Shown: in pieces, positions 16,703-56,900 of the stretch
Numbering within the stretch: position 1 is the stretch's first letter
Layout of the letters: every line of letters begins with the position of its first letter
Assembly: GCA_030272155.1 (NCBI GenBank)
Contig: CP126201.1
Location: forward strand, 3,508,501-3,572,500
From: Tetradesmus obliquus
Taxonomy: Eukaryota; Chlorophyta; Chlorophyceae; Sphaeropleales; Scenedesmaceae
Direction of reading: 5' to 3'
DNA: 64,000 nt
Translations under genes and position numbers: made by a program
The notes under the pieces: model-generated
What the model was told of the DNA's origin: nothing
Database searches by the model: none
What the model saw: only the letters and a program-made list of their open reading frames with translations

Positions 16703-17142
16703 TGCTGCGTCTACAGCTGTCTGTTGAGAAGGTCACAGGAACGGAGCCTTCTTGGAACTAGGCTGGATACTGACCGAATCGATATGGACCGTAAACGGAG
16801 AGTATTCCAGTTAGTTACCAAGTGAACCGAAACAACAGGAGGTGCACTTAAAGAGCACGCGTTGATCAAGTACTTCGTAATAGACTGAAGAACGGTGGAC
16901 TGGCACCCCTTTATATAGTCGTCTCCCACATAGTATACTCATAAGAAACATCCAGAATTAACACTACTAGAAGCATCCTGCAAAGCTACATCATACCATC
17001 TCCAGAGAGATCCGGAGAAACCTTGTACATTCGAGATCGATCCACATCATTCGACAACTCTCAACAACAACTACCATGTTCACGAACATACCATATAAAA
17101 CTTACTAAGTTAAACTACACTACTTCCTATGTCCTCCTTACA
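16703..17142 (-). repeat. 5' LTR of the chromovirus
   Basis: This is the upstream LTR in the element's orientation, 440 bp and identical to the left copy. On the coding strand a TATA-like CTATATAA (16918-16911) lies inside it, so transcription should start about 25-30 bases further on, towards lower coordinates. Confidence 0.95.
16911..16918 (-). promoter_or_regulatory. TATA box in 5' LTR
   Basis: CTATATAAAGG on the coding strand is the only strong TATA match in the LTR and sits upstream of the expected R region. The same motif is present in the 3' LTR. Confidence 0.55.
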
Positions 17143-18289: not shown

Positions 18290-21200
18290 ATGGGGGAGCC
18301 ACTAGACAGGGACACGCTGTTCAAGAAGCTCAGAAGCAAGCCTGAGAATAAGGTTTGCGATACAGTGCCGGCAACACAAGTCACATGTATAATCGAGCTG
18401 GGCAAGCTTGCGACCATGTAAACTCCCCTCTGCTTGCAGGTTTGCTTTGATTGCCCGGCAAAAAACCCGACTTGGGCTTCTGTACCGTATGGCGTGTATA
18501 TATGCCTGGCGTGTGCGGGCATTCACCGCAGCCTAGGCGTGCACATCAGCTTCGTGAGGTGAGCTTCTGCTGGGACATTCCCAGACAGCTGTTGGGGCAC
18601 CCGTGCATCTGTTGATTCACTGACAGAGTATCCATTGTGCAGGTCAACAACGCTGGACACGTGGACAGAGGACCAGCTGCGGGTGAGCAGGGTCCCATGC
18701 AACTGCTGTGTCTGTTGCTGCTGCACCAGCTACCCTGCATCACAGAGGAGTTGCGTTGTTTGTGCGTGATCCCCTGATATTAAAAATAAAGCGGTGCTAA
18801 CCTGCCCATTCTATGCAGCTGATGGCTGTTGGTGGCAACCACAAGGCGCGGCAGTTCTTCAAGCAGCATGGCTATGATGAGGTTGGTTCGGACAAGATTG
18901 AGAACAAGGTGAGCAGTGGCTGGTGGCATCGCTGGCTTACACACTTGTGTTGGCAGCCAGTCTAGCGTTTCTGGTTTACTGCCAGTGTACAATGAAGCAC
19001 CCAGATCCTCTATTTCCATGCAGCACACAAAGCACTGCAGCAGTGGCAGCAGCAACAGCAGCAGGTGCATGCTAACAAATTTTATGTTTGTCCTTGGTGC
19101 CTGCAGTACACATCGCGCGCTGCACAGCTGTACCGTCAGCAGCTGGAGAAGGAGGCCATCAAGACGTTCAGGTGTGCAGCAGCAGCAGCAGCAGCAGCAA
19201 CAGCCACCCTCGCACTTGCTACCACTACAGCGCAAGCGCCGGCGTGTGCAAGTGGCAGCGTTTGGCCTAACAAAGCAGAATTAGTATGCAGTTGCGGTGA
19301 ATGCCTAGCAGCGCGAATCTGGCATGCGGACACAACCGCTGCAGACTGGGCATCGTGTCCTTCAAGGTGCAGGTTGCAGTAAGCCCATGCAACACCAACT
19401 ATGTGTTATTTTCTGCTGCCCTGTCATATTCCCTGCTCCGCAGTGTTGCGTCGCCAAAGGTTGCGGACAGCAGCAGCACCTCAGCACCCACTGCAGCCAG
19501 CAGCAGCACACAGCCAGCCGCCGCAGCTGCAGCAGCAGGCGTGGCAGGCGCAGCAGCAGGCGCTGCTGCAGCCACCGGCGGTTTGAGGCCAGCTGTCTCT
19601 GCCAGCAAGCCAGGTGAGAACTGCTGTGTGCGGGAAACCGGCTTTTGGCAATGCAGCATAGCCCTGCAAGTGCGGACAAGATGCGCAGCTGCTACTTGCC
19701 AGACACAGCTGCGCTGGTTTGTGCCGTTTTGTCAGCAACACACTGCAGCACGAGTGCCTTTTTACAACTGCACATCACACCCAACATGGTGGCTGGCTGC
19801 GCGGTGTTGCACTGAACTTTTACCAAACCTCTCCTTTGGTCCTGCGCGTCACCCTGCGCCTCATTTCTGGTGCAGCCGCGTCGCGCCTGGTGCAGCCGCG
19901 CAAGCCGGCCGGCAAGCTGGGTGGTGGGCTAGGCGTGCGCAAGCTGGAGGCCAAGGTTGATGAAGGCCTGTTTGAGCAGCAGCCGGCGGCCCCCGAGCCA
20001 GTCAAGCCGCTGCCGGTGGCTGCTGCGGTAGCGGCGGAGGCGGAGAAGCCGGCGGCTGCCTCGCGCTTTGCGTACGACACGCTGACGGCGGTGAGCAGTG
20101 AGCTGGGGTGCTGGGGTGTTGGGTCGCTGCTTGTGCTTAGCAGCGTGGGCTTGTGCGCTTTGTTGAGAACTGGCTCGTGAACGTTTGGGCCTAGGTAGCT
20201 GGGCCGGAAGTTGTGTTTTGGTGTGCAGGGCGGGTGGCGGCGGAGGCGAGAAGCCGGCGGCTGCCTCGCGCTTCGCGTACGACACACCGCGGTGAGAGGG
20301 GGAGGGCGAGCTCAGTGCTGGGGCGTCTGGTTGCTGCAGCCGCGTGAGCTTGTGCGCTGTGGTTGATACAGGCTCGTGTGTTGCTCCTGAGCTGCCGCTG
20401 GAATTGTGGGTTGGCGGCAACAAGATTTAGTGTGAGGGGGCGGTGGCGGCGGAGGCGGAGAAGCCGGCGGCTGCCTCGCGCTTCGCGTACGACACGCTGA
20501 CTGCGGTGAGCTGCTGTGCAGCTGTTCGGCATCTAAAGCATATGTAGTGTGTGCAGCGTGTCTTTGTGGTGGTGCGTATTGGGATCGTATCTCTGATGGC
20601 ATGCTGGTGTTGCCGTTGCTGTGTGCAGCAGCTCGAGCCTGTCCCTCACACATTTCTGCACGCTTTGCTGCATCGCAGGCGCCGGCCGCCAGCAGCAGCG
20701 CCGCAGCAGCGGCCAACCCCATGCAGCGCGGCAAGGACGGCCACCTCACGCTGGGCCTCAGCAATGATGACTTCTTCAAGGACCCGCTGTCCATGGCAGG
20801 TAAGGATAGTGAGAGCAAGGCGGGGGAGAAGCAGCTTCAGCAGTGACGCAACATCTGAGGTTCAACACTTCCAGCCATGGTTGCAGGGGCCGTGTCCAGA
20901 CATCTGGGCGAGCATCATGTTGCATTGTGCTTTTGCTGTTGTTGCTGATGCACAGTGTGCTTCCTGCACACTCTATCTACACAGGTGCGCAGCGCAGCGG
21001 CAGCGGCGGGCTAGGCGGCACGCCGAAGGCAGGGTATGGCGGCGCGCCGGGGCCCTTTGGCGGCTTTGGGGGTGCTGGCATGGGTGCGCCGAAGCCGGCG
21101 GAGGTGGAGCCGATCGCGCAGAAGCGCTTTGCCAACGCCAAGGCCATCTCGTCAAGGTGTGTTGGGATGGGAGACTGTAGAGATGCTCACAGTGCTGCAG

Positions 21201-24400: not shown

Positions 24401-27400
24401 ATGAGCTGCTTACCCAGCTCGCCATCGGACCTCAGTGGACTAGGACAGCAGCATGAGGTGCACCAGGCTGCCCAGACCATCTGCAGCTTGCCTGAACACG
24501 CACTGGACCTCGTTGCCAGCTGCCTCGTTCGCAGCAGCGGCAGCCAGCAAAACTTCAGGCAGAGCTGCAGGGCCTTCAGAGCAGCTGGCCACCGCGCATC
24601 AATAGCAACCCTGGACCTCTATGAGCTCTGTGGATGGGGCAATGGCTCGCAGCATGTGCCGCAGCAGGCGCTGCGCACAGCAGAACTCTGCCCAAACGTC
24701 ACATCCATCACCTTCCCTAGCGGCTGGAGGCACACCAACATACAGCAGCTGCTGCAGCATGCCTCGCTGCATGCCAGGGCCTGGCGCAGGCTCACAAGCC
24801 TTTCCATGCACTTCCATGCATTCAGCCCAAGCACTGCAGCAGCACTGGCACAGCTGGCACCGAGCCTGAGCCAGCTCACGCTGTCGCTGGACCTGGCCTT
24901 TGAGCAGACGCGCAGCCAGGCGTGGCGTGTGCGGGCGCTGCTGCAGCTGCCACAGCTGCAGAGCCTGACAGTTGAACCAGACCTCAGGTAAGGGCTCACT
25001 GCTAGCCCCCGTGCCTGAACTCGCACCACAACCACCACCACAACCCATACGCGCCTCACTCATACCACCGGTTTCACAAGCCTCATTGAACCCGCCACCC
25101 ATACTTTCCATACTGCTGCAGGCCTGAGGCGCTGCAGCTGCTGTCAGGCCTGCCCAGGCTGCGGCAGCTGCAGCTGGCAGGGGCCCCTCAGCACAGCAGC
25201 CACCCAGAAGCAAGCCTGGTAGCACTGGCAGGCCTGCAGCAGCTGACAAGCCTGCGCTTCAACTGGCAGGCCGGCAGGTGAGGTTTGTGCGATTTTGAGG
25301 ACATAATAGAGCCATGTGATTCACATGCTGGCAGCATTGGCAGGACTGCAGCAGCTGACCAGCCTGCGCTTCAACTGGCAGGCCGGCAGGTGAGGTTTGA
25401 GCCAATTTGATGATGGTGGTAGGGCCGTGTGATGTACATGCTGGCAGCACTGGCAGACCTGCAGCAGCTAACAAGCCTGCGCTTCAACCGGCAGGCCGGC
25501 AGGTGCGGGTAATCATAAACTTTTGGAAAGGCATGTGAATGCCATGCCTGGCAGGCGCCATGCAAATAGGATCAGCACACAGTATACTGCAGCGGTTCAC
25601 TACGTATGTGTGTGCGCATACAGTGGTATTCCTCAAGCGGCGGCGCTGGTGTGGAGCAGCTACCAACACGAACTCTGCTGCTCGCAGAGCAGCCTTGCTG
25701 TGAAAAATCAATGAATTCAAATTATAATCCATGCCGCACTGCTGCCGGCTTGTAGGACGCTGGTTGATGCTCGGCTGCTGTCAGCGCTGACTCATCTCAA
25801 GGAGCTGCAGCTGTGGCTGTCAGGGGTTCTATTCCACATGAAACTGTACAAATATGTCACAAAGACCATGCCGCACTGCTGCCGGCTTGTAGGACGCTGG
25901 TTGATTCGCGGCTGCTGTCATCGCTGACTCATCTCAAGGAGCTGCAGCTGTGGCTGTCAGGGGTTGTATTCCACATGAAACTGTACAAATATGTCACAAA
26001 GATCATGCCGCACTGCTGCCGGCTTGTAGGACGCTGGGTGATGCTCGGCTGCTGTCAGCGCTGACTCATCTCAAGGAGCTGCAGCTGTGGCTGTCAGGGG
26101 GCGGCCGGGAGCTGCCACCTTGCAGCAGCAAGCCCCTGCCAGGCATGCTGGCAGCAGCAGCGCAGCTGACTGGGCTGACGCGGCTGGAGCTGCTGCAAGG
26201 GCTGTACATGTCTTGGGACCTGCGGGAGATCCGACACCTGTCTAGCCTTCGGCAGCTGCAGGTGTGCTGGTGGCTGCGGTGCTTGGTTAGTGCATGCTGT
26301 AATGGCAGCGGGCTGTGTGCTTTTCAAGTGGAACAGTAGCAAGCGTCCTTGTGCAGCATGATGGCAAACAGCTGGTGTAACTGGTGTGCGATTACGTGCA
26401 GCAAGCGTAAGGTGCATTGTTAGGGCGACAGCAGCAGGTACAGGTGCAAAAGGTTATTTGCACGTAACATCCAACTTGTACCACTGAACCAACTGATGTG
26501 CTGCCGCATGCGCAGTTGCTCCGTTTACACGACTCCCTGCTCTGTGAACAGCAGCTGTAGGGTCGATCATACTCCTAGCTCAGGCCTGTGCTACAAGTGC
26601 TGCTGTGCTGTGCTGGCAAATGTGTAGGTGTTCGGATACATTACTCCGACAAGAAACTGGCACTGCTGGTGCCCTGCAGCAGCCTGCAATACAACGGCTG
26701 AACCTACTGCTGCACTGCCGCAAATGCAGGTGCTTGGGCTGCATGACTCTGTGCTGTGTGACGATGATCTGGCACTGCTGGCTCCTTGCAGTAGCCTGCA
26801 GCACCTGCGGGTAGACACACTGAAGCTACCAGCTATCCGCAGCACAGCAGCAGCCGTTGTGCAGCAACCAGGGCAGCCAGCCGCTGCAGCAGCAGCAGAC
26901 GCTGCCGCAGGAGCTGCTGCTGCTGCTGCTGCTATGGGAGGTGATCCTGCAGATGCAGCAGGCGGCGGCAGCAGCAGCAGCAGCGCGCTTGCTTTGGCGC
27001 TGACAGCGCTTGCGCGGCTGAAGCAGCTGGAGGTAAACATGCTGCAACTAGGCTTGTGGCAGCTGGACGAGGTCTGTCCGCAGCTGACAAACCTAACACC
27101 GTTAGATTGCACGCTAGGCCCCAAGGGCCATGGAGTGGTGTGGGAGCTGGGGGCTCTCGAGGGCCATTCAAACCTGCAGGTGTTAGGGCTTATGGTTGGG
27201 GCTTTGGGCACGACCTGCAGCTGCCACAAGAGCTTCAAGACTGCTAACTGCGCAGAGTCCCTTGCAGCAGCAGTAGTAAGGGTTATCCTGCAGTCTGCTG
27301 GCATCAGCAGGAGCAGTGCAGGGCCTGGCGGGGTTAGCCTGCAGCAGCTGGCAGCACTGCTGCAGTCACTGCCGAGGCTGCAGCAGCTGCAGCTGTGGGG

Positions 27401-29876: not shown

Positions 29877-30758
29877 CAGACCATGCACGCTGGTGCAAAA
29901 AGGCGTGCAAGTAGTTGCACATAAGTTGTGACCCCAGTCTGCGGATGGCCAGGCATGATCAGGCCCCAGTGCCAACAAGCCTACAAGTGCCTCAGTGCAC
30001 TGACTCTCCAATCATTGGGAGGCGATGTGCCACTACACCAGCAGCATGAGGCCGTTTTGGTGCTCATCAGGCCAGCGCACATTGCCCGGGTGCTGTTGCC
30101 CAGGGTCATAGGGGCAGCAGAGGCGGCACATCAGAGTCGCGCCCTGCACACGACAATGCCATGTGCCACATGGTGGGCCACCATGTGGCACACGGTATAC
30201 ATGGGTGTCATGCGCATTGCTGACTACGATACCTGGGCCTGGGTTGCCCCTTTTTCAATGATTTTCTTATTTTTCATGATCTGGTTGCGCATTGTTTATA
30301 TATATGGCCTGCGCTTGCGTATGCGATGGGCGGTGACCTGCATCTCCGTGCTCTTGCTGGCTGTCCACAGTGGCTGCATCCTGAGGACGCATGTGTGGGT
30401 CAATGAGGAGGGTTGCAAGTCTGAGGAAGGAGGTATGTCTCATGGGTAACTTGAACTATGGTTGGAACCTTACGGCAAATCAGTGCTGGTCTGGTGTGGC
30501 ACACTCGGTTGCGTCGACAACAACTGCCTAAACCCAGAGGGACGCAACAGCTGGGCTGGGGTTCTAGGTTTTGATCAGGTGCCAAGGAATGATGGGGGCT
30601 GCTCTGCAAATTCTGTGTCCTCATTATGTTTGTTGCATCAAGCTTTGGTGTATGCGATTGGACCTTGACTGAGTTTGCTGCAGCACAACATGAACAACAT
30701 TTGAACTGCTGCTGCTGCTGTGGCACCTTAGCTGTCTTGCCTCCTAGTCGATCTAGCG
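29877..30758. other. Region between the small gene and NUP93
   Basis: A 173-codon frame (29928-30449) has two hydrophobic stretches but no family similarity and is probably untranslated. The region contains a 31-bp palindrome at 30162-30192. The NUP93 promoter should lie at its right end. Confidence 0.45.
30162..30192. repeat. Perfect 31-bp palindrome
   Basis: Two 15-base arms (TGTGCCACATGGTGG and its reverse complement) meet around a single G. It could form a cruciform or be a dimeric binding site. Confidence 0.85.
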
Positions 30759-33700
30759 ATGACGCCGGAACAAACGGACTGGCTGTCCCTGGTGCACCAA
30801 ACCAACGATTTGGTTGCCCAGGTCCGTCACACCCGCGTGAAGCACAGTTGTGCAGCTGCAAGTGCTCGATCGCTGGAAGCAGGCTGATATGCGCTGCCCG
30901 CTGTTCGTAGGATCGACATGGCTATCCAAAAGTGCAAAGGGACCTCACGGGCTTGCTGCTGAGTTCGCAATCAGCAAGGGCGCGTACCAGCAGAGTGCGA
31001 AGCCAAGATGAGCAGGCAGCAGCAACACGCCTGCTGGCTATGCAGGGCTTTGATGCCGGCAGGTAGGTGATAAACTGCACTTATAGGGCGTGATCAGCGT
31101 GCAAAGCGCTTAGCAGCCGCACCAGCAGTACAGTATTGCAGCAGCAGCTACAGCAGCAGGGGCAGCAGCTTTCTCAGCAGCTGTGGCTGCTTTGCACTGT
31201 TGCACTGTACACTGTGAACAGGTTGGGAGTCATCGCTGCCTCACTCCTGCAACCCCTGCTCTGTCACTCCTCTTCCAACACATTTCATACACTGTTTCAA
31301 GATGCCTTGCTGCTTGTCCACTCCCTGTCCTGCAGGCTGAACCAGGATGTGGCTATGCTGGAGCTGCAGCCAACACTGGAAGATGTGTTCCATGCTGACA
31401 CAACCAGCGTGGAGGATTACCTGCAGCAGATCCAAGACATGACCATACTCACAGCCATCCAGGTGGGCTGCTTGATCTTGAACACATTCTGGACATACTT
31501 GCCATCTTGTCCTGTGACAGCTGGAAGCTTTGTAGAGAACTTTGAAATGTACAATGGGTTGGAGTCTACCACCAGACTGTAGCACCTGCAGCAGCTGCAA
31601 TTTGATTGTCCTGCACTAGCAGATGCTTTTGCACAAGTGCTACAATTGCTGCTTCAATGCTTCACTTCTGCGTCTCACTTGCAGGAGGCGCAGCAGGACA
31701 CCATCATGTCATTTGAGAGCTACATGTCAGACTGCATGAACCGCGACTGGGCCAATGACAAGGCAGGACTGTTCAGCAGTGTGGCTCCTTTCACGGGGCT
31801 GTCGGCAGGCGGCAGTGCTCTGGGTGGCCTGTCATTTGGCAGCTTGGCACGTGGCGACACAGGTGAGGCTTCTGCTGCTCCGCTGCGTATGCCTGGATTT
31901 TGTACGATTGGCAACATATGTGCATTGTTGGCTGCTGCATGTCTTTGTATGTAATCGTGGTTGTTGTTTGCTGCAACACGATATGCAGCAGTGTGGCTCG
32001 TTGCACGGGGCTGTCAGCAGGCGGCAGCGCGCTTGGTGGACTGTCATTTGGCAGCGTGGCACGTGGCGACGCAGGTGAGGCTTCTGCTGCGTTGCTGCTT
32101 GCTTAGCTGCCACAAGGGCTACTGTGAGGGAAGCTTCGCTGCGCTGTTGCTGCTGTCTGCTTTGCTTGTATCTGCGCTACATCTGCGCAATAAAATCGCA
32201 CACATCGCTGCATCCGCCTATTGTTTCTGTGTTACCTCAGGTGCGTTTGCTGGCGGCGCCAAGCTCGGCCCACAGGAGCAAGCCTACGTGGCAGTTGTGA
32301 AGCAGCTCACAGCAGCAGCGGCAGCAGCAGCAGGCGGCGGCGGAGCGCAGCCGGACCCCATCACAGCATTTGGCGCTGCGTGTGAGCAGTACGAAGATAA
32401 GAGCCCAGACACACTGATGAGCAACTGCTGGAAGCTGCTGGGTGACATCCTGAGCATTGCACAGGGCAAGGGAGCCACACCTGCCCAGGGCACAGGCTAC
32501 GTTGAGATGCTGCTGCAGGTGCGCAAAGTAGAGAAGAACTGTATCGTCAACCAGTGCTGTGAGTGCCATTGCCTGTGCCCTGTGCGCCAGGGCGCTCCCG
32601 CGCCTTGCCCTGTTTGGTGTTGTGCGAGCGTCGCAGGCTTTCTTGGCTGGTGGGTGTTTATCTTGAGGCTTGCAATTCAAATGGGTGACATCCTGAGCAT
32701 TGCACAGGGCAAGGGAGCCACACCTGCCCAGGGCACAGGCTACGTTGAGATGCTGCTGCAGGTGCGTGAAGTAGAGAAAGAACTGTGTTGCCAATAAGTG
32801 CTGTAGGTGCCATTGCCTGTGCCTGTGCGCCAGGGTGCTTCCGCGCCTTGCTGTGTTATGTGTTGTGCGAGCGTCACAGGTTTTCTTGGCTAATGGGTGC
32901 TGATCTCAAGGCTTGCAATTCGAGTAGGTGACATCCTGAGCATTGCACAGGGCAAGGGCGCGACACCTGCTCAGGGCACAGGCAGCGTTGAGATGCTGCT
33001 GCAGGTGTGGGCGTTTGATGGGTTGCTGCTGCGTCGTCCTTACAGGGCTGTGCGTGTCAGCGTTTGTTGACGGCACTTGCGTATGGTTTTGATGAATGTT
33101 GGGCTGTGTTGAGATGCTGTTGCAGGTGGGATGAGCGTGACGTCAGCGTTGCTGTCGTATTGCTACACAGGACTGGGTGTGTTAATGCTTGTTGATGACA
33201 GTTGCCTGACACCCTTTGTTGGGATGTTGGGGGTTGTTTCAGCATGGTAGTGTAACAGCTACACTAACCACTCTGCTCATGATGCATCAACGGCACCAAA
33301 CCTAAACCCCTGCTGTTTGTTGTGTGTGTGTTGTGTGACCTGTTGCAGGGCGGCCGCAACCACCTGCAGTCGGGGTTTGCCGCGCACATGCGCAGCGTTG
33401 TCAGCCGCCACCGCAGTACCGCGCAGCGCGGCGCAGACCCCGACCCGCTGCGAGATGTGCAAGCCTACCTGGCTGTGAAGTTCAGGGACAAGGGGCTGCT
33501 CGACATCACCGCACCAGGCGGCGTGGACACGACTTGGGCTCAGGTACGTGTTGTGCATGTTCAGAGGGTGTTGCTTGGTTCCCTGGTGTGTTGCCTGCTT
33601 GTTTCCTGTTCCTGCGAAGGCTGTGAGGCATATGTGGTACAGCTGCTGGCCCATCATCGAGCATGCAAGCATGTGACTGCATCGGCCGATCATGCTAGTG

Positions 33701-36700
33701 CTCTGTCAGCATGGGCTGAAGTTCAGGGACAAGGGGCTGCTCGACATCACTGTTCCAGGCGGCGTGGACACGACATGGGCTCAGTTGCGTCTAAAGATTG
33801 TATGGCCTGCGGAGTTTGCATCCGGGTGTGACTGCTGCCGTTTTGACGTTGCTCAGCTGCCGGTGGCGGGTCAGTGTCCACAATGTAAACCGCATCGGCT
33901 GGTGTTCTGCCAGCTTACCTCCTCCAGCATGCAGCCAACCCACACGATCTGATGCGTTGAAGCTGCTTTGACTTGGCATCGCACACACGCAGGTGTACTA
34001 CGGCCTGCGCTCCGGCATGCATGACGTGGCGCCGCTTTAACCCATGGCGCCGTCTGACAAGTGTATGTTATGCTGCCGCTGCTGCCGCCGCTGCTGCTGT
34101 GCATCGCACACACGCAGGTCTACTACGGCCTGCGCTCAGGCATGCACGTCGTGGCATCATGATACATGCGGCTGTCTGACACGTGTGCTTCAAGTACATG
34201 CTGCTGCTGCTGCTGCTGTGCATCGCGCACACGCAGGTCTACTACGGCCTGCGCTCAGGCATGCACGACGTGGCACGGCTTCAACCCATGGCGCCGTCTG
34301 ACAAGTGTATGTTATGCTGCCGCCGCTGCTGCTGCCGCTGCTATGCATTCCACACGCAGGTGTACTACGGCCTGCGCTCAGGCATGCACGACGTGGCGCT
34401 GCGTGCAGCAGAGCGGGCGCTGGACTTCTCGCAGCGCAGCGCTGCTGGTGGCGGCAGCGTGAAGCAGCTGCTGCAGGCGTGGCTGGGCAATGCTGCGGGC
34501 TTCCGGTCCAGCCACGGGACGCGCATGGTGCAGGAGTGTGAGCGGCTGCTGCAGAGCTACAACCAGAAGCAGGTGGGCACAGATGCAGCTAGATGGGAGA
34601 AATGGATTGTGTTTTGGGAAGGTTGCTGCAAAGGTTCCTGAGCAGCAAGATCTGGGATGCTGGTGCTAGGTGGACTGCCTACCAGGTCAGGGCAGACGTA
34701 TGTTGTGAGCTGTGGCCGTTTGAAGGGTATCAGATGATGGTTCAGCCTCAGTTGTGGCAATGCGGCGGGCTTCCGGTCCAGCCATGGGGCGCGCATGGCG
34801 CAGGAGTGTGAGCGGCTGCTGCAGAGCTACAACCAGAAGCAGGTGCGCGGGGGCAGGGTTATAAAAGCAGCAATACATGAGAGAGTTTTGGTAGCTTGTG
34901 AGTAATTAACGGTCGGAAGGTGTTGGTGTCAGGCTCAGTGATTCTGTGCTGGTCTGCTACAGTGCTCTCCAGGACTGCTGGCTGCATACCGCAGCATTTG
35001 ATCAGTGAGGTCCCACGACGCCTGTGCATGTTATGCATGCCGTTGTAAGTTGCGCTTGTGGCTAAGCAAGCTGTCTGTGCTGCTGCTGGCTGCTGCAGGG
35101 CCAGCTGAAGCAGGACTACCAGCTGCTGGTGTATGCACTCATGGCAGGAGACAGCAGGTGGGCCAGGCAGGGCACGCACGGCAGCAAACACATGCAGCAG
35201 CCCCCGCATCTGTCAGTTGTTTCTGCTGCATGACATGTGCGCATCGTTTTGTTGGCAGGTGATGCTGTCAGGGACAGTCATGGTATGTTCGGGTGCGCTC
35301 ACAGATGCGGCGTCCTGCATGCGTGTTACATGTGCGTGTTATGTAACTGTTCTTTTACTTCCCCTGTCAAGTCATGTCCGGTGACACGCTGTTCAAGCTG
35401 AGCCCTGGGCTGTTCCACCATGGAAGACTACATCTGGGTGCAGCTGTCAGTTGTAATCTGTCATTTTTGTCGTCATGTTGCCTCAGGTCCGTCGACACGC
35501 TGTTCAAGCTAAGCCCTGGCCTCTTCCCCACCATGGAGGACTACATTTGGGTCAAGCTGTCACTTGTAACTGTCACCTTTGTTGTTATTATGCCTCAGGT
35601 CTGTCGACACGCTGTTCAAGCTGAGCCCTGGCCTCTTCCCCACCATGGAAGACTACATCTGGGTGAAGTTGTCACTTGTAACTGTCACCTGTATTGTTAT
35701 TTTGCCTCAGGTCTGTCGACACGCTGTTCAAGCTAAGCCCTGGGCTGTTCCCCACCATGGAAGACTACATCTGGGTGAAGCTGTCATTGGTCAACACAGC
35801 ACCAGCAGCAGCAGGCGCTGGCGGCAGCCTTGGGGGCGGCAGCAGCAGCTGGGGCGGCAGCATGAGCCCAAGCAGCGGCGGCGGCCTGGGGCAGGGCGCA
35901 CCAGGTGAGGCTGGTGTAACATGAAAAGTAACACTATTGTAACATTGTGCAAAGGGCGGCAGCAACAGTGGGGGTGGGGGGCTGAGCGGCAGCATGAGCC
36001 CAAGCAGCGGCGGCGGCCTGGGGCAGGGCGCACCAGGTGAGGCTGGCGTAACATAGAAATTAACACTGCTATAAGATTGAAATCTGACGTAGTGCTGTAT
36101 GGTGTGGGACCATCCTGTCGGTTGCTGTGCGTTGCTGGCGGCAATGCCGTGATTGGTTATGGCCTGCTGGTGCTATCAAATGCGGGCAGCAGTTGCTTTG
36201 TAGGCCTGTTTTACAGCAGTCATGCTGGCAGCGCTGCAGCTGCTGGGGGCACCACCCTCAGCACTTACATCTTGCAAGCAGGCGATATTTGCCCTATAAC
36301 CTAAAACACTACTGCCTTACACCCTCGTCGCGCACACGCACACTCGTATCGACTTGCCGCTGCTGCTGCCCTTCCTGCGTGTTCGCCCCGTCCACGCTGC
36401 CGCCTTTTCCACGCTGCTGCGCCTTTGTATCTGCAGTCTACACACTGGCAGCGCTACAAGCGGAGCTCAACCGCTGGGGCCCCAAGTACTACTCCAAAGA
36501 CGGAGCAGAGCCGCTGCTGTTCCTGACAGTGCTGCTGCTCAGCCTGCAGTTTAAGCGCGGGCTGGCGTTCCTGCTCAAGAGCGATATGGCCAAGGCATAT
36601 CGGCTGGATGGCATACACCTGGCTCTCGCACTGCACTTCACAGGGGTGAGCTGCATTGCATTTGGACCACATGTATTTTATGTGAATATCTCATATTTCC

Positions 36701-39700
36701 GCTGCGTGTTGGCGCTTTTTGCGTGGATATGGTGTGGCCAATGCATACGGGCTGGATGGCATCCACTTGGCGCTCGCACTGCATTTCACAGGGGTGAGCT
36801 GCATTACACCTTGCCGCGATGTCTGTATGGTTTATGTCTATGCCGCCGGGATCGGCTCTTTTTTGCATAGATATGGCGCGGCCAAGGCGTTCCGCCTACA
36901 TGGCGTCCCCGTGGCGCTGGTGCTGCTCTCCACAGAGTGAGCGTGCACTGCCTTGCATCGCAACACATCGCACTGCATTTCGGTGTATCGTGGCGTATCG
37001 TGCCGTATCCTGATGCATTGCAGTACATCGCGCTGCAGCTCACAGCGGTAACCAGCATCCCGCTTGACTTCTGACGGTGCTGCGTTCTGCTGCTGCGCGC
37101 TGCTTTTTCCCGTCACTTACAGGTGCTGGCGTGCAACACAGACGACCCAGCAGCAGGTGCCCCACTGGACCTCAGCCTGCCTGATGCTGTGGCCTCATTC
37201 GGCCGCCGCTACGTGGCCAGCGACAGCAGCACCGCGCTGCAGTACTACATGCTGGCTGCTGAGCTGGCTGGTGGAGGTGTGAAGGAGCAAGGGAAGCTGT
37301 TCAGGGAGCTGCTGGTGCAGAGCAAGGACTACGGTGGGTTGAGCTGTCAGTTGCATGTAGGATCTTTCATGTGCACAGTTTGCTGTTTTCTTTGCAGATC
37401 TTTCCAGCGAGTCCTGTTGTTGGGTGAGGTGTGGCCAGTCTGCCTGTACCTTTCCGTGTTGTGTGGCCAGCGACAGCAGCACTGCGCTGCAGTACTACAT
37501 GCTGGCTGCTGAGCTGGCTGGTGGAGGTGTGAAGGAGCAAGGGAAGCTGTTCAGGGAGCTGCTGGTGCAGAGCAAGGACTACGGTGGGTTGAGCTGTCAG
37601 TTGCATGTAGGATCTATCATGTGCACAGTTTGCTGTTTTCTTTGCAGATCTTTCCAGCGAGTCCTGTTGTTGGGTGAGGTGTGGCCAGTCTGCCTGTACC
37701 TTTCCGTGTTGTGTGGCCAGCGACAGCAGCACTGCGCTGCAGTACTACATGCTGGCTGCTGAGCTGGCTGGTGGAGGTGTGAAGGAGCAAGGGAAGCTGT
37801 TCAGGGAGCTGCTGGTGCAGAGCAAGGACTACGGTGGGTTGAGCTGTCAGTTGCATGTAGGATCTATCATGTGCACAGTTTGCTGTTTTCTTTGCAGATC
37901 TTTCCAGCGAGTCCTGTTGTTGGGTGAGGTGTGGCCAGTCTGCCTGTACCTTTCCGTGTTGTGTGGCCAGCGACAGCAGCACTGCGCTGCAGTACTACAT
38001 GCTGGCTGCTGAGCTGGCTGGTGGAGGTGTGAAGGAGCAAGGGAAGCTGTTCAGGGAGCTGCTGGTGCAGAGCAAGGACTACGGTGGGTTGAGCTGTCAG
38101 TTGCATGTAGGATCTATCATGTGCACAGTTTGCTGTTTTCTTTGCAGATCTTTCCAGCGAGTCCTGTTGTTGGGTGAGGTGTGGCCAGTCTGCCTGTACC
38201 TTTCCGTGTTGTGTGGCCAGCGACAGCAGCACTGCGCTGCAGTACTACATGCTGGCTGCTGAGCTGGCTGGTGGAGGTGTGAAGGAGCAAGGGAAGCTGT
38301 TCAGGGAGCTGCTGGTGCAGAGCAAGGACTACGGTGGGTTGAGCTGTCAGTTGCATGTAGGATCTATCATGTGCACAGTTTGCTGTTTTCTTTGCAGATC
38401 TTTCCAGCGAGTCCTGTTGTTGGGTGAGGTGTGGCCAGTCTGCCTGTACCTTTCCGTGTTGTGTGGCCAGCGACAGCAGCACTGCGCTGCAGTACTACAT
38501 GCTGGCTGCTGAGCTGGCTGGTGGAGGTGTGAAGGAGCAGGGCAAGCTCTTCAGGGAGCTGCTGGTGCAGAGCAAGGACTACGGTGAGTGTGCCTGCCTC
38601 TTGCATTTATGTTATGAGCTGTGATGTGTGCTGTCATGTGCACAGCTTGTCATGTTTCGTGCAGACTGTTTGAACGAGTCCTGTTGTCGGTTGATATGTG
38701 GCCGGTCTGCCTGTACCTTTCCGTGTTTTGTGGCCAGCGACAGCAGCACTGCGCTGCAGTACTACATGCTGGCTGCTGAGCTGGCTGGTGGAGGTGTGAA
38801 GGAGCAAGGGAAGCTCTTCTGGGAGCTGCTGGTGCAGAGCAAGGACTACGGTGGGTTGAACATCACCTTTTGCTTGATACAGTGCGCAGCTGGTGATGTG
38901 CGCTGATGAACGTTAGGCGTGCGGGTTTTGTCTTTGGCTAGGCTGCCATGATGTGTTGTGTCATGTGACGGCCACAGCTTGGAGGGTAAGGCTGGAAGCT
39001 GCAGTATTACATGCTGGCTGCCGAGCTGGCTGGCGGGGGCGTGAAGGAGCAGGGCAAGCTGTTCCGGGAGCTGCTGGTGCAGAGCAAGGACTATGGTGAG
39101 CAGCGAATCACATATTTGTTTGACATGTATGTGCGGCATGGTGCGTACGCAGACTGTTTCATGCGGTGTGATTTTTGGGTGTAATGCGGGGTATGCCTGC
39201 GCTTTGCCACGTTCAGGCTGGGGTGGTCAGGTAAACAGCCTCTTCGGTGTGTGGCTTTTGCAAGTCATCACTGCTTGCCTAGCTGCAAGAGCCAGACAAC
39301 AATTGCATCCATTGCACGCATTGCATGGTTGGACTCGCAACGCCTTTGTCTTGTCCTGAGCCGTGTTCTAATGGCTGCTGCGGCTGGCTTCTATGTGCTG
39401 TTCTTCTGCAGGCACGCTACTGGGCGGGGGTGGCGCGCTGGGCAGCGGCGGCGCCATCCAGCAGTTTGTGCCTGACCCCAGGCAGCGCGCCAACCTGTTT
39501 GAAAGCGTTGCATACGACTGCCAGATCAATCAGCAGCCCGATGAGGCGCGTGAGCTGTTCATGGCTGCGCAGAAGCCCCGTGCTGCACTGCGCATCATCA
39601 ACCAGCAGCTGTCAGCAGCCATCCACGCGAGCAAAGGTGCGTGAGCAATTGTGTTGCTCGGTGAGCATGTGGAGTTGGCTGCGGTGACGAGGAATGTGAA

Positions 39701-41270
39701 AAGGCTGCAGCAGTAGCCGCGTGCAACTGCTGTCGTTCACGATTGTGGCGCATGCTTACCTTGGCGCCGTCACAGACATGCAGAAGCACAGCACTTCTCA
39801 AGCCTCACTAGAACGGACGCCCCTGTGGCTGTTTGGAAGCTCACCATTCTGATGTCCTGCATCTTCTCTCTCTCCATTCTTCCCTGTTCCACACATGTGC
39901 GTATTTTGCAGGCGCTGTCACAGAGTCGGTTGCCGTGCTGCTCAGCCGCGGCCAGGCAGCAGTGGAGGCCATTGCAGCAGCGCCCGACCCCACCAGCCGC
40001 CGCGATGCAGAGGCCTTCCAGCAGCTGCAGCTCATACGGCAGATGGTGGAGCTGGCTGGGCAGGGCCAGTGGGACAAGGTGCTGCAGGTGAGACTGAGTT
40101 TGCTCGGAACATACTTTGTCATCTTTTGCTGACGTGTTGTGACTCGTGAATGTGTGGTTGTGTTGTGTAACAGCTGCAAGGCTGTTGCAGTATGCTGCAG
40201 CTGCATGCTGTGCCTGCCTAAAACGGCAGGGCCGGCAGGTGAGGGGGCTGCAGGGGAGTGGCTATGTGCTGGTGTCTGCGCCAGAAGCTTCTAGCAGCTG
40301 CAGCTCAAACGGCAGATGGTGGAGCTGGCGGGGCAGGGCCAGTGGGACAAGGTGCTGCAGGTGAGAGGATAATGTGCCATGTGTTGTTGCTGTTTGCTGC
40401 GTGCATATTTTTGTGTGTTGGCGCACGCTTGCTTGTCATGTCCAGCAGATGGTGGAGCTGGCTGGGCAGGTCCAGTGGCACCAGGTGCTGCAGGTGAGAG
40501 GATGATTTGGTGTGTGCTGCTGGCGCGTTGCTGGTGGTGCGCAAGTTGATGGGGCACTCGGTGTTTGATGGTGTATGCTGCTGATGCGTTGCTTGTGTTC
40601 TGCTTGTGTATGTGTTGTGCGCTGCTCGTGTTCTTATGGTGTTGCTGCATGGTAGCATGCTTTGCCCGGCAGATGGTACAGCTGGCTGGGCAGGGCCAAT
40701 GCGACAAGGTGCTGCAGGTGAGGCCTGCTCTGAATTGATCCTGCTGTTTGCGTGTAGCTGCGCTGCACACGGTGCACAGGTGCACGTGCGGCGCAGCACG
40801 CGTGCACAATCTCTACCCCGCACCTTACCTGCCCACTCCCCGTTCTTTACCGCAGGCGTCCTCGCAGCTGTCCTTCATTTCCACCAAAAAGGCCCGCATT
40901 GAGGTCTGCAAGCTTATGCACAGACCCCACCTGTCCTGCACCTCACCCTGTCGCCGCCTTGCATTGCTGCCTATTGTTGCTGCCACAGGCGTCCTCGCAG
41001 CTGTCCTTCATCCCAACCGAAAAAGCCCGCATTGAGGTCTGCAAGCTGGAAGTGCGCCAGCTGGACGACTCCGTGCGAGAGCGCATGAGCGATGTGTTGC
41101 AGATCCTCGCGGCAGCAATCAGCCAGGCTAGGTCTTCACCTGACAGCCGCATGCTAAGTATGCTGCGGGAGCGCGTGGCGTGCCTGAAGGTATTTGTGCT
41201 GGATTTGGACCCCAGTATTACGCCTCAGGTGTATGAGCGCATCAATGCATGTGTGCGCGAGTTCAGCTAG
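30759..41270 (+). CDS. NUP93: Nucleoporin NUP93 (NIC96 family)
   Basis: Fourteen exons: 30759-30821, 30911-31062, 31336-31462, 31685-31862, 32241-32518, 33349-33543, 34360-34572, 35099-35157, 35711-35904, 36437-36645, 37123-37333, 39412-39636, 39912-40087, 40989-41270; 853 aa, close to the usual 820. The N-terminal part has 'AATRLLAMQGFDAGR' and 'EDVFHADTTSVEDYLQQ', a NUP93 hallmark. Later parts follow the Nic96 helical domain ('YYGLRSGMHDVALRAAERA', 'MEDYIWVKLSLV', 'LLLSLQFKRGLAFLL', 'ALQYYMLAAEL', 'ANLFESVAYDCQIN'). NUP93 is an inner-ring scaffold nucleoporin that anchors NUP205/188 and NUP62. Ala and Gly/Ser inserts occur in exons 5 and 9. Nearly every intron from 4 onward holds tandem copies of a neighbouring exon end; I chose the copy joined to the exon body, and only this choice gives a continuous frame. 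Confidence 0.93.
31770..32074 (+). repeat. NUP93 exon 4 end, two copies
   Basis: The exon end coding 'TGLSAGGSALGGLSFGS' with its GTGAGG donor recurs at about 31985-32074, 212 bp downstream. The copy has a usable CAG upstream of it and diverges at several positions. Confidence 0.88.
32440..33126 (+). repeat. NUP93 exon 5 end, 244-bp tandem repeat
   Basis: The segment coding 'GDILSIAQGKGATPAQGTG' plus donor and the following intron recurs at 32683 and about 32927, with a truncated fourth copy near 33106-33126. The intron parts are also clearly similar between units, so whole units were duplicated. Confidence 0.92.
33475..33785 (+). repeat. NUP93 exon 6 end, two copies
   Basis: The stretch coding 'KFRDKGLLDIT' and 'GGVDTTWAQ' is repeated at 33717-33784. 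In the second copy the base after the CAG has changed, so no GT donor follows. Confidence 0.88.
33981..34400 (+). repeat. NUP93 exon 7 start with acceptor, four copies
   Basis: CACACGCAG acceptors followed by 'VYYGLRSGMHDV' coding sequence end at 33992, 34117, 34236 and 34359, about 119-125 bp apart. Only the fourth continues into the exon body. Each unit carries a CTG-rich pyrimidine stretch before its acceptor, apart from the first. Confidence 0.92.
34485..34842 (+). repeat. NUP93 exon 7 end, two copies
   Basis: Coding sequence for 'NAAGFRSSHGTRM' to 'LLQSYNQKQ' with a donor is repeated 270 bp downstream (donors after 34572 and 34842). Confidence 0.9.
35374..35790 (+). repeat. NUP93 exon 9 start with acceptor, 112-bp repeat, four copies
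   Basis: Acceptors GCCTCAG end at 35486, 35598 and 35710, exactly 112 bp apart, with a more diverged first copy near 35378. Each is followed by the 'VDTLFKLSPGLF' and 'MEDYIWVKLS' exon start. The last copy continues into the exon. Confidence 0.94.
35820..36070 (+). repeat. NUP93 exon 9 end, two copies
   Basis: The Gly/Ser-rich exon end ('GSMSPSSGGGLGQGAP') with its donor and about 35 bp of intron recurs 132 bp downstream (donors after 35904 and 36036). Confidence 0.9.
36585..36940 (+). repeat. NUP93 exon 10 end, three copies
   Basis: The segment coding 'AYRLDGIHLALALHFTG' with donor GTGAGC recurs near 36729-36790 and, more diverged, near 36871-36937. Spacing is about 143 bp. Confidence 0.88.
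37213..39095 (+). repeat. NUP93 exon 11 end, 250-bp tandem array, eight copies
   Basis: Copies begin at 37213, 37463, 37713, 37963, 38213 and 38463 with an exact 250-bp period, followed by two diverged copies near 38730 and 38998. Each carries the exon piece coding 'ALQYYMLAAELAGGGVKEQ' and a donor. The middle units appear identical, so this part expanded very recently. The array fills most of the 2.1-kb intron 11. Confidence 0.97.
40018..40717 (+). repeat. NUP93 exon 13 end, four copies
   Basis: 'RQMVELAGQGQWDKVLQ' coding sequence with a GTGAG donor ends at 40087, 40360, 40493 and 40717. The spacing is irregular (273, 133, 224 bp). Confidence 0.9.
40852..41042 (+). repeat. NUP93 exon 14 start with acceptor, two copies
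   Basis: CAG acceptors ending at 40855 and 40988 are each followed by 'ASSQLSFI' and 'KARIEVCKL' coding sequence, 133 bp apart. The second continues into the last exon. Confidence 0.9.
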
Positions 41271-41740
41271 TTGGCTAGAGCTGGCTCGCCAGCTGTTGGC
41301 TGCTTAGCATGGCACAGATGGTGCCACAGGTGTATGAGCGCATCAATGCGTGTGTGCGCGAGTTCAGCTAGTTAGCTACAGCTGGCTTGCCGGCTGTCGG
41401 CTGCTTAGCATGGCACAGATGGTGCCACAGGTGTATGAGCGCATCAATGCGTGTGTGCGCGAGTTCAGCTAGTTAGCTACAGCTGGCTTGCCGGCTGTCG
41501 GCTGCTGAGCACCGCACAGCTGGTGCCGCGCGTGTATGGGTGCGTCAATGCTTGTTTGCGCGAGTTCAGCTAGTTAGCTACACCTAGCTTGCCGGCTGCT
41601 GGCTGCTGCTTAGCACGGCGCAGCTTGTGCCGTGCGTGTATGGGTGCGTCAACGCTTGTGCGCGGAAGTTCAGGTAGCTGGCCGGCTGGGTGTCACTAGC
41701 CACACAGCTTGTGCCGCACGCAGTCATCTGGATGTTTTGT
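41228..41740 (+). repeat. 101-bp repeat copying the last codons and stop of NUP93
   Basis: 'VYERINACVREFS' and its TAG stop, with about 60 bp of the following untranslated region, recur at 41331, 41432, 41533 and about 41637. Two copies keep a CCACAG just before them that could act as an acceptor. Confidence 0.93.
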
Positions 41741-52806: not shown

Positions 52807-53522
52807 CGCCACTAAGCTGTCCACAAAACAGCGCAACAACGCTTTCAAAATCACGCAACCCCCATAATTGCGTTACAGGCACTGTGCGTTGGCAAGCAGC
52901 TGTGCTGTATGTTTGTTCATCCTTTTTGACAGCACAGCTTATTGCCTTTTACTCACTGTTGCTTGTATGCTAGGCAATGTGTCCCGCAACTGCTGTGCAC
53001 ATGCGCCATGCAGTTGACCCGCAACTGCTGTGCACATGCGCCATGCAGTTGACCCGCAACTGCTGTGCACATGCGCCATGCAGTTGACCCGCAATGAACA
53101 GTGCATGCCCGTGTCCTGGCGCGACATACGCCTTTTTTCCGCTGCTATTGTTATGTGCTGCAGCGTGACGTCCCAGGACTCACGCGTTCAAGCATTCCTG
53201 TGCTTGCCTCAAAGGGTGTCCAGGGCATCACTGGGGGAGTGAATGCCTTCAGTGCACCCCCGGGTGTGCCCAAGAACACCCCTTTTATCTGGAGGGATGA
53301 AGAGAGTGGCACACAGCTGCTGGCCATGTGGCACCCAGGCAAGTTCAATGTTGCAAGTCCGGCTGCTGCTGCTGCTGCTGCTGCTGCTGCATGCTCTGAT
53401 GCTGGCCATGTGGCACCCAGGCAAGTTCGATGTTGCAAGTGCGGTTGCTGCTGCTGCTGCTGCTGCTGCATGCTCTGATGCTGGCCATGTGGCACCCAGG
53501 CAAGTTCGATGTTGCAAGTGCG

Positions 53523-53554
<32 letters not shown>

Positions 53555-53953
53555 ATGCTCTGATGCTGGCCATGTGGCACCCAGGCAAGTTTAATATTGC
53601 AAGTCCGGCTGCTGCTGCTGCTGCTACTGCTGCTGCTGCTGCTGCTGCATGCTCTTTGCTGGCCATGTGGCACCCAGGCGAGTGGGGTGCTGCGAGTTTT
53701 TATTGCTGCAATGACGTGCTGCTGTTGAGCCAGTAGGACAGGAAATGAAGCAATCATATGTGGCAGAAGCACTGTGCGTATGTTGTACAAATTCCTGCTG
53801 TGAAGCACTGCACGCTGCACATGTTCAACTGCCACGCCGCGCAATGCACTCTATGGCAGCGTCACCTGCTGCATGCTGTGCTGCTGCCCCTGGTGTGATT
53901 CCTTGGCGTTCCAGCACTGCACGTGCTTAGCTGCCATGGTTCGGCAACAGATC

Positions 53954-53984
<31 letters not shown>

Positions 53985-56900
53985 TGCATGCTTCTCCCGC
54001 CAGGTGGTTACTCTGGCAGCGTAAACGGCACCCTCATTGACAGCAGGCAGGACTGCGTCACCGCGCCTGGCTTTAAGCACGCCCTCTGCGTCTCCTGGAG
54101 GAACGACAACTTAGGTGCGTGGGGCTTTGAAGGTACTGCATTTGCTGATCTGTGTGTGCAGCTGTGCAGCTGCCGAACTGGGCTGCATGCCTCTGCTGTG
54201 GCAAGTGACCTGCAAAAAAGGACATACAGGCAGTGGCAGGTGCTGTGAAGCACACGTTAGGTGTGCAATTGGCAGCCCACATGATTGAGTGTCAGCACGT
54301 CAGTTGCGGGTGCAATTCAGCACGACGTATGCCATGTTTTACTACGAAGTCAACTGTGCCACAGCACATGTGACATCACCCATACGCAGTCAGCTACTGC
54401 GTAACCTGCCACGTTGTCCGCCACCCATTCACATACTCCCCTCTTGCTGCACACCTGCTGTGCAAATTCAGGTCCGCCTGAGACGCTGGAGGAGCTGCAA
54501 ACGATGTTTGCTGTCGCGCGGCAGCAGTGGCCAGGAGCGACTGTGAAAGCCAGCAGCCTGGATGCATACCTGGAGCAGCTGAGCGGCGCTGTTGAGGCTG
54601 GCGAAATCAAGCTGCCTGTTGTAACAGGTGCGTGTTTGTGAGTGGCTGTGGTTTGTGTGGTCTATGCACTGCCGGCATTGCATGTGCTACTAACTGCAAG
54701 CTACAACTCAAACTACAACTCGGACCACCTGCCTTCATCATTGTCATGTCACATGCACACCTGCTTTATCCTTGTGCAGGCAAAATAGATGACACCTGGA
54801 ATCATGTATGCATTGCCTCGGCCATGGCCGCATGACTAGTCACCGCGCAGTGCTCTGAAATTGCTGATCGTCCTGCCTTTCACTATCACTTGCCGCCATA
54901 TGTCTGCAGGTGAGATCGGTGACACTTGGATCCATGGCATCGCCTCAGACCCTGGCCGCATGGCTAGCTACCGCGCAACACTCAGGGCGCGACACACCTG
55001 CAGGCACACACCACACTGCGATTCTGAGGTGCGCCAGCTCTACTGCTGTGCTAGGCACAGTGCTAGTTACAGTGCATTTGGATGTGTGTTGATGCCATGG
55101 TTGCAAGCCTGCCAGCGCGCATTGTTTGAGGCGGACTTCCTGTGCGATGAGCTGCAACCTGCCTGCTGTTTCTGTACGATGCTCCACTGTTCAGCATCAA
55201 CAGGTTGAACTGTAATGATGAGACAGCCTGCGCTGCTGCAACTGCTGTGCTATGCTGTTCCGTGCTGTGCTGTGCAGTCGCCTGCCTTCCACAACTTCAC
55301 CCGCATGTTGGTCAAGGTGGCAGAGCACACCTGGTGAGCAGCAGCCGGCAGCCAAGCCGTTGTCTTGGAAATTATTGACTTTACAGTTGACCTGGCATCA
55401 GCAAGTCCATTTGACGCACTAGCAACATGCGCAAACAGGGGAGGGAGCTGATGGCATGTCGGCCTGCTGCATCAGTTGCTGTGCACCCATGGGTCCGTAT
55501 CCTTCAAACGATGTTTTTCACAGATTGCAATTGGGACGTTGGCTGTTTGCAGAGGCGTGGCCCAACCAGTATTGTCAAACCAATGTAACTTCTTCATCAA
55601 CCAGTACTTCAATCGTCATAACTGGTGCTGTCTGCAGGGGTGTGTCCTTCAACCAGTACTTCAACGACTTCAGCAATTACACAAATGCTTGGCTGCACCA
55701 GCTGCTGGAGGAAGGAGAGGCAGCACACGCCAACCTAGCAGTGTGCGTGGAAAGCTGGCGGCGGCAGCGGCAGTACGTGGACTGGGCCCTAGAGGTGGGT
55801 CACTGCTGGCCCCTGTAGCGGCTCTAGTTTAGAGCTATACTGCAAGAGTTATACTGCAAGAGCTGCTTGTTTTGTGCTTACCTTGTGGGGCTGGCTGTGT
55901 CAGTGGAAAGCTGGCCGAGGCAGTACGTGGACTGGGCACTGGAGGTGGGTCAGTTGCTAAGGAATGCAGTGCTGATCGTGTTGTGTATCAGCCGCTTACC
56001 TTGTGGGGGTTGCAGTGCAGGCCCGTACCCGCTGAGCTTGCAGTGTACAATAGTATCTCAACTGAGTCAGACTTCAAGGCTGACTTTCACACTGGCACAT
56101 CCTCAGTGAGTGATCGCCACTGCTTCTGCTGCTGCGGCTGCTGCCGCAACAGGCGCTGCCGCTGAAGCACCCCATCCGTGCTTACGTGGCACAAGACAGG
56201 CAGGCGCGCAGCCAGGCACACAAACGGCTGCACCCGCAGCAGATGCAGGCTGAAGGAGCAGTGCCCTTGTTGCCACTGGCGGAACGTTCAGCTGCTGCTG
56301 CTGCTGCAGCAGCAGCGCCAAATGGCAGAATGCAACCAGGCAGCAGCAGCAGCAGCAGCACAGGGGTTTTGCATGACTGCGGGTGTGCTGGTGGCAGTAA
56401 CCCTGAGCAGCTGCTGTTCTGCAGCAAGCATTGGCTGCTGCAAGTCGACCCTGAAACAGGTGGGCACAGCATATTTTTTGGCAACTGCACTGCCAGCATG
56501 TCATTTTATCTGTTGGTACAACAAGTGTTCAACCATGTTTTGACCAAATTTGACCAGCACCATTTGCCTGCTGCAAGGGAGGTGCATGGCAGATGCACAG
56601 CAGCAGCTGGATGCCGTTAGCATCGCTGCTGCATGAGTGCAGCTTGCCCGTGGATGCTCCTGTGCACTGCAAGCATCACAGGCATATGCGCCGCAACTCC
56701 TGCACATGTGCATGGCAAGTGGCAAGTGCACATTCCAGCTTACCACACATGCAAGCAGCCAACCAACACAAGCTCTGTCGGCTGTCACCGGTGTGTGCAT
56801 TGCTTGCAGGCGGGCTGTTGCGCCTGCAGCGAATGTACAGCAAGAAAGCCCTTGGCAACGATTGGGCTGCGGGACCAGCAGCTGCTTTGACCCCTGCAGA

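Follow-up and report, generated by a model that had tools for sequence, protein, structure and literature searches.

Introners occur as dispersed families and bring about a rapid gain of intronic sequence. Minisatellites and other local tandem repeats consist of units, each tens to hundreds of bases long, that are arranged head to tail and vary in copy number. In the potato RdRp gene, intron gain by tandem duplication over an intron–exon boundary is described in the available part of PMC4974935, which also sets out the AGGT model of intron gain. Proto-splice-site duplication in Drosophila is described in the accessible text of PMC2891723.

For the green alga Tetradesmus obliquus, the available portion of PMC5966456 gives a mean intron length of 462 bp, compared with 230–302 bp in four other algae, and a coding share of 15.7%. 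Intron retention has been reported for a phytochelatin synthase gene of Scenedesmus acutus (PMC12899622, available in part). The accessible text of PMC7590803 makes no mention of intron, tandem or alternative splicing, and that of PMC12571836 none of intron or tandem. No genome-scale description of the copying of exon ends into introns occurs among the literature matches listed, a scope that leaves most subscription papers aside.

The locus considered here is the NUP93 gene of T. obliquus, whose introns hold tandem copies of the ends of its exons. It lies within a 64-kb stretch of DNA that was analysed as a whole and is referred to below as the window. Such arrays share with introners the fast gain of intronic sequence. 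Introners are dispersed, however, whereas each array in the window resembles only its own exon region, and a self-comparison of the 64-kb window revealed no sequence sharing between arrays of different introns. With minisatellites the arrays have in common a head-to-tail, multi-copy organization, as seen by both TRF and self-alignment.

The NUP93 gene and its tandem arrays

The NUP93 coding sequence spans 30759..41270 (+), and its 14 exons join into a single open frame of 853 aa:

30759-30821, 30911-31062, 31336-31462, 31685-31862, 32241-32518 (+): NUP93 exons 1-5, open frame
33349-33543, 34360-34572, 35099-35157, 35711-35904, 36437-36645 (+): NUP93 exons 6-10, open frame
37123-37333, 39412-39636, 39912-40087, 40989-41270 (+): NUP93 exons 11-14, open frame

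The product matches the Pfam family Nic96 (E = 5.9e-66), and its best solved relative is NUP93A of 9sob (E = 7e-71). Annotated T. obliquus proteins show 96–99% identity to it; for instance, P0002 is 99% identical, with the whole query covered. A search for viral-contig relatives of P0005 gave five pattern matches, none of which was a true relative.

Self-alignment and TRF confirmed the twelve tandem arrays that an initial annotation of the window had proposed for this gene, at the places claimed, within 31774–41677. Neighbouring copies are offset by 101–273 bp and number 2–8 per array, which bears out the proposed unit of ~100–270 bp and 2–8 copies; the extra copies per array range from one to seven. 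The arrays involve the donors of exons 4, 5, 6, 7, 9, 10, 11 and 13, the acceptors of exons 7, 9 and 14, and the stop codon:

31774..32098 (+): exon 4 donor-side array with a single extra copy at offset 212, its donor lying after 32074
32439..33007 (+): exon 5 donor-side array, offset 243, copy donors after 32761 and 33004
33476..33790 (+): exon 6 donor-side array, one extra copy at 33717-33784, where the donor GT is TT
33976..34402 (+): exon 7 acceptor-side array, three extra copies upstream, starting at 33993, 34118 and 34237
34486..34848 (+): exon 7 donor-side array, one extra copy, donor after 34842, intron part unalignable (z = 0.7)
35372..35786 (+): exon 9 acceptor-side array, three extra copies upstream (35376, 35487, 35599), unit 112
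35854..36079 (+): exon 9 donor-side array of unit 132 with a single extra copy, whose donor follows 36036, intron part z = 8.3
36587..36947 (+): exon 10 donor-side array of unit ~148, extra copies at 36793 and, with a weaker match, at 36937
37213..39123 (+): exon 11 donor-side array, seven extra copies, unit 250
after 37583, 37833, 38083, 38333, 38583, 38850 and 39095 (+): exon 11 copy donors
40015..40722 (+): exon 13 donor-side array, three extra copies (40360, 40493, 40717)
40850..41047 (+): exon 14 acceptor-side array, one extra copy (40856), unit 133
41222..41677 (+): end-of-CDS array at the coding/UTR boundary, with last codons, stop and 3′ UTR, unit 101, ~4.5 copies

All twelve arrays had been assigned to splice junctions. 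Eleven are so placed, and the last (41222–41677) copies the stop codon and 3′ UTR instead. Just before it lies a 39-nt “intron” that is in frame and stop-free and is translated as VFVLDLDPSITPQ in P0001–P0004, which suggests that there is probably no splice junction there. The claim that almost every boundary from exon 4 onward is duplicated was too broad: from the exon-4 donor onward there are ten introns and 20 junctions, of which 11 are copied (8 donors, 3 acceptors), and copies are carried by nine of the ten introns. Self-comparison revealed no copies in intron 12, and likewise none in introns 1–3. Each copy represents one exon end only, which is not the pattern of whole-exon duplication or of mutually exclusive exons.

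The exonic parts of the copies are mostly 84–100% identical to the exon. Two remnants are poorer, namely the one at 36937 (41/60 identical) and one of only ~24 nt that lies beyond the exon 5 array and ends at 33125. Each copy had also been said to include adjoining intron. This holds for some arrays: the intron part was alignable at z ≥ 4 in 6/16 donor and 4/7 acceptor pairs tested, and in the first pair of the exon 5 array it reached z = 29.6, whereas in the other arrays little remains beyond the exon end and ~6 intron bases. When compared with the last 60 bases of exon 11, the nearest four of its copies match at 60/60 and the other three at 57, 58 and 54. Copies 6 and 7 of this array have exon parts that are 97% identical and introns that align poorly, or not at all, with those of other copies. 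Removal of the copies shortens the region 30759–41777 from 11,019 to 5,683 bp, and the proposal that introns are growing out of exon sequence is upheld.

With copies collapsed, the NUP93 introns are 89–400 bp long, and for units of 101–270 bp a random event, purely coding ones excepted, reaches an edge with a probability of 0.73. That all twelve arrays do so has a probability of 0.019 under geometry alone. Since geometry already predicts 73% overlap, NUP93 by itself is weak evidence for a junction preference, and its junction rule is mostly geometry plus the purging of exon-internal events; the excess in the genome sample described below is stronger. The strict polarity that had been noted is not independent evidence, because a head-to-tail copy of a segment over an exon end must fall there.

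Arrays in the window and across the genome sample

Exon edges outside NUP93 were mostly taken from a small two-strand gene finder, which was trained on NUP93, then on the sample plus the window, and which is itself confused by copies. Of the 18 arrays in the 64-kb window, 16 take in an edge. The following belong to predicted genes other than NUP93:

20025..20511 (+): neighbouring predicted gene, two extra copies on the donor side of exon 19876-20107
25216..25508 (+): second predicted gene, two extra copies of unit 112 on the donor side of exon 25122-25277
25729..26100 (+): second predicted gene again, two extra upstream copies of unit 137 on the acceptor side of exon 26030-26261
55735..55952 (+): third predicted gene, a single extra copy on the donor side of exon 55638-55794

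Several other repeats occur in the window. At 53318–53697 is a tandem array with a unit of 82 bp in which CACCCAG is followed by GCAAGT; it may be a donor-side array that uses a GC donor, a donor type outside the gene finder's model. A 35-bp tandem repeat at 52983–53094 (3.2 copies, 100% match) coincides with no predicted exon. Short CAG/CTG repeats are found in many places, and a 570-bp CAG-rich repeat stretch at 47686–48256 is partly called coding by the gene finder. Identical 440-bp direct repeats at 10866–11305 and 16703–17142 flank predicted minus-strand genes. Together with the enclosed genes, whose translation resembles a retrotransposon polyprotein by eye, they probably represent a recently inserted LTR element. 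Imperfect palindromes, with an 84–89% match to their own reverse complement, are located at 21646–21767 (122 bp), 22217–22322 (106 bp) and 30156–30198 (43 bp).

The genome sample (200 kb of 104.66 Mb) consisted of twenty 10-kb stretches, one from the 1.0-Mb position of every one of the 17 contigs plus, for three contigs, a second from the 3.0-Mb position. It yielded 64 arrays in 16 of the 20 stretches, with a combined 30,481 bp, or 15% of bases. The same search, which finds all twelve NUP93 arrays, returned none after dinucleotide shuffling of the sample stretches. The best-aligned pairs were offset by 100–160 bp in 35 of the 64 arrays and by 220–280 bp in 12. The initial annotation had inferred that separate local tandem duplications occur at a high rate, which these 64 arrays support; they also show that such a density is not peculiar to one gene. 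NUP93 represents an upper extreme, with copies at 11/26 ends (curated model) versus 32/340 in the sample (Fisher p = 3.5e-5), for a gene that was chosen post hoc as striking.

A comparison of array/junction overlap with a control had also been proposed, and when run on the sample it showed enrichment: 41 of the 64 arrays take in an exon edge while the body of that exon lies beyond the array, against an expected fraction of 0.34 on collapsed sample sequence. For the window and sample taken together, random shifting gave an expected fraction of 0.31. Setting aside purely coding events left 41/59 arrays at an edge, against 0.42 expected. The 41 edge arrays comprise 28 at a donor, 10 at an acceptor, two at both and one at a stop. 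The other arrays fall inside predicted exons (five) or touch no body-exon boundary (18), so the earlier wording that only junction-spanning events survive does not stand. When arrays were grouped by identity, an edge was included in 6/16 of those below 80%, 21/27 of those at 80–90% and 14/21 of those at ≥90%; given the last figure, the excess is not limited to old arrays in which the exon half is still visible.

A scan of exon ends rests on fewer assumptions. For every body exon, the terminal 50 nt (last at donors, first at acceptors) were compared with the sequence outside, and a match of at least 37/50 was counted as a copy. Intron-side copies were present at 21/167 donor ends and 11/173 acceptor ends of the sample, whereas copies on the opposite side were found at 1/340 ends, and at 0/340 after the 50 nt had been shuffled. 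Copies occur at donor edges with about twice the frequency seen at acceptor edges (31/220 versus 15/224 for sample plus window, p = 0.012; p = 0.063 for the sample alone).

Six predicted peptides, out of 17 from ten stretches, were sent to Pfam, and each matched a family; two of the genes were read exon by exon. The glutamate–cysteine ligase gene (L010; GCS2, 4.9e-83) has copies at four body-exon donors. In the gene for the U5 116-kDa GTPase (L023; EFTUD2, 3.7e-33; GTP_EFTU, 1.9e-44), the start of one exon is copied twice extra and another exon is repeated. These two conserved and mutually unrelated genes have the same anatomy as NUP93.

Positions 3540–3890 of L023 contain three versions of the segment for the GTP-binding loop. 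Because they share one open stretch, the gene finder joins them as one exon, and merged segments of this kind probably give rise to false protein repeats when the genome is annotated. A separate observation concerns L021, where ~6 kb (1–6039) consist almost entirely of tandem repeats with offsets of 274 and 351 bp, unlike the short exon-edge arrays; this is perhaps a satellite or a repeat protein.

Proposed mechanism and fate of the copies

The reading regarded as probable is that local tandem duplication is frequent, that events crossing an edge are tolerated and accumulate, lengthening introns, and that the copies then decay. According to this reading, the genome would undergo frequent local tandem duplication of segments mostly 80–280 bp long, which the presence of arrays in 16/20 stretches shows for the sample. 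If a segment crosses a coding edge (donor, acceptor or stop), the new copy lies on the non-coding side and the original is still joined to the exon body. Because one copy stays attached in this way, such events could be tolerated, accumulate and lengthen introns. The protein would remain unchanged while splicing keeps to the site beside the exon body; the arrangement of the copies is shown by the sequence, and the behaviour of the RNA is judged from full-length, copy-free proteins, one of which comes from short contigs of mRNA size. The intron half of a copy would lose similarity faster through substitutions and indels, while the exon half would remain recognisable for longer, given that selection maintains its counterpart. 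Some copies may be renewed, and units multiplied, by exchange or gene conversion with the exon. Finally, donor-side events would be the more numerous, a bias for which the order of transcription is a plausible reason: the correct donor precedes its copies, whereas acceptor copies precede the correct acceptor.

The proteins of NUP93 are relevant here. Those of 853/854 aa read over the existing introns without copies, and no new intron position arises in the main product. P0003, whose source sequences are ≤3,623 bases long, is a full 854-aa protein with zero copies included. Because it is complete without any copy and its source is short, that source appears, from its size, to be mRNA-like and to skip the copies.

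The two halves of the copies differ in divergence. In 40 sample arrays, the exonic parts had 268 mismatches in 2738 columns and 33 gaps, compared with 340 in 2291 and 220 gaps for the intronic parts; half of the lower exonic divergence is to be expected, because one exon copy is under selection. For a neutral copy compared with an exon free to change silently, the expected ceiling is 45% of differences at third positions. The best alignment per array (52 arrays) gave 57%, but when all copies were used the third-position share was 0.47 in the sample and 0.53 in NUP93. Differences between copies outside NUP93 were distributed 33:30:37 among codon positions 1:2:3 (16 arrays, after one of the 17 listed was skipped), a neutral pattern, as for unconstrained DNA. 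Constraint on the copies genome-wide was dropped as an explanation on these grounds, and the neutral copy-to-copy pattern leads most copies to be read as decaying relics. NUP93 stays above the ceiling: a hand count of its intronic copies placed 29/42 variable sites at third positions (p = 0.0014 versus 0.45), which hints at coding constraint. A first count for this gene had given 58:19:12 over codon positions 3:1:2, a total that omits one near-identical pair.

Head-to-tail copying also predicts similarity on the intron side. This was seen in 28/49 edge arrays (z ≥ 3), in several at near 100%, and the intron part was unalignable (z < 3) in 21/49, including 9/25 of those with an exon part at least 93% identical. 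For these arrays, plain neutral decay is insufficient without gene conversion or exon-limited copying, and exchange or gene conversion with the exon would best account for copies that are alike in the exon and unlike in the intron. The nearest copy was closer to the exon than the farthest in 14 cases versus five, with four ties (8:4:3 in the sample, 6:1:1 in the window), a suggestive trend.

It is improbable that copying was instead limited to the exon, by an exon-templated process or repeated gene conversion that stops at the splice site and leaves spacers of unrelated DNA, even though several observations resemble its products. The alignment stops ≤10 bp inside the intron in 23/53 edge arrays (13/38 donor, 10/15 acceptor), some arrays show the order exon end, spacer, exon end and have a last intron that is not homologous, and the nine high-identity arrays just mentioned have no alignable intron. 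Against this, the 28/49 arrays with intron-side homology extend over the predicted unit, and ordinary duplication followed by gene conversion yields the same picture. A further reading, considered quite improbable, is that the copies are working alternative exons, spliced in some transcripts, with frame and splice site under selection. A GT is kept within 6 nt of the expected place in 33/38 donor copies, which upholds, for donors, the earlier statement that introns fill with functional-looking splice sites, and the third-position excess in NUP93 copies points the same way. Two annotated proteins also carry one copy each as a short insert: P0007 (OEZ86_013748) has 13 aa corresponding to the last 39 nt of the exon-7 donor-side copy, and P0001, from another assembly, has 21 aa matching the exon-6 copy sequence. 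If real, these isoforms would split an intron. However, the first gene finder, which had no RNA input, calls the P0007 insert (34804–34842) as an exon by itself (34825–34842 in the retrained version), so the annotated inserts may be predictions; the C-terminus of P0007, GEAGVT, matches a read-through into intron 9, and P0003 lacks any copy. Cassette exons were rejected on the copies themselves, as the starts of 38 donor copies were not enriched in acceptor-like sites (observed/null 0.50/0.44, 0.37/0.34 and 0.18/0.26 at rising thresholds), nor were the ends of 15 acceptor copies clearly enriched in donor sites. In addition, 16/21 exonic gaps are not multiples of three, and the copy-to-copy differences outside NUP93 are neutral.

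A stronger version of the duplication reading is doubtful. It holds that exon edges are preferred starts of duplication and that gene conversion renews the copies, which together would form a one-way ratchet from coding edge into intron, about twice as fast at donors through the order of co-transcriptional splicing. The 41/59 edge arrays versus 0.42, the 14/21 at ≥90% identity and the 9/25 without intron homology are compatible with it. An assembly artefact, in which false tandem copies stem from alleles or collapsed reads, is highly improbable. The 250-bp copies of intron 11, at 99–100% identity, are a repeat type that assemblies miscount, but most other copies differ from the exon and from one another, the assembly is in 17 contigs, and the insert of P0001 resembling the exon-6 copy comes from the other assembly. 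Descent of the copies from alleles of a diverged strain was likewise not favoured, on the argument that a third-position divergence of ~17% (153/912) should leave introns alignable. At two amino-acid sites (exon 4 V, exon 7 A) the copy carries the other assembly's residue, which ancestral retention also fits.

Comparison with known systems

Frequent local duplication with tolerated edge-crossing events, the reading regarded as probable, would offer a simple, transposon-free route to longer introns, with copies ranging from near-identical to strongly diverged in one genome. It may help to explain why the introns of T. obliquus are longer, and its coding share lower, than those of related algae. 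The arrays also provide natural experiments in splice-site choice, in which true donors compete with intact downstream copies and true acceptors with upstream ones. As a warning, gene prediction in T. obliquus can mistake copied exon ends for additional exons.

The arrays differ from minisatellites in that most contain an exon edge, above placement expectation. With respect to intron gain by tandem duplication, tandem copying of exonic or boundary sequence is present, and the full unit is visible in 28/49 arrays; a new intron position in the mRNA was not found in the 853/854-aa proteins. As far as the available portions of their sources go, the proto-splice-site and AGGT models resemble the situation in the alga, since exon sequence is duplicated in tandem and then intronised. 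In those models duplication within an exon makes a new intron, whereas in the alga the intron positions of the main product are constant.

The event is thus of a known kind, at an abundance over the genome sample for which no description was found, and NUP93 is its showpiece. The potato RdRp gene, judging by the part of PMC4974935 available, shares with the alga duplication over an intron/exon boundary, inherited splice signals and the conversion of exonic into intronic sequence. The potato example is a single case that produced a new intron, whereas in T. obliquus it is introns already present that lengthen, and numerous copies are spread over many boundaries in the genome sample, more of them at donors.
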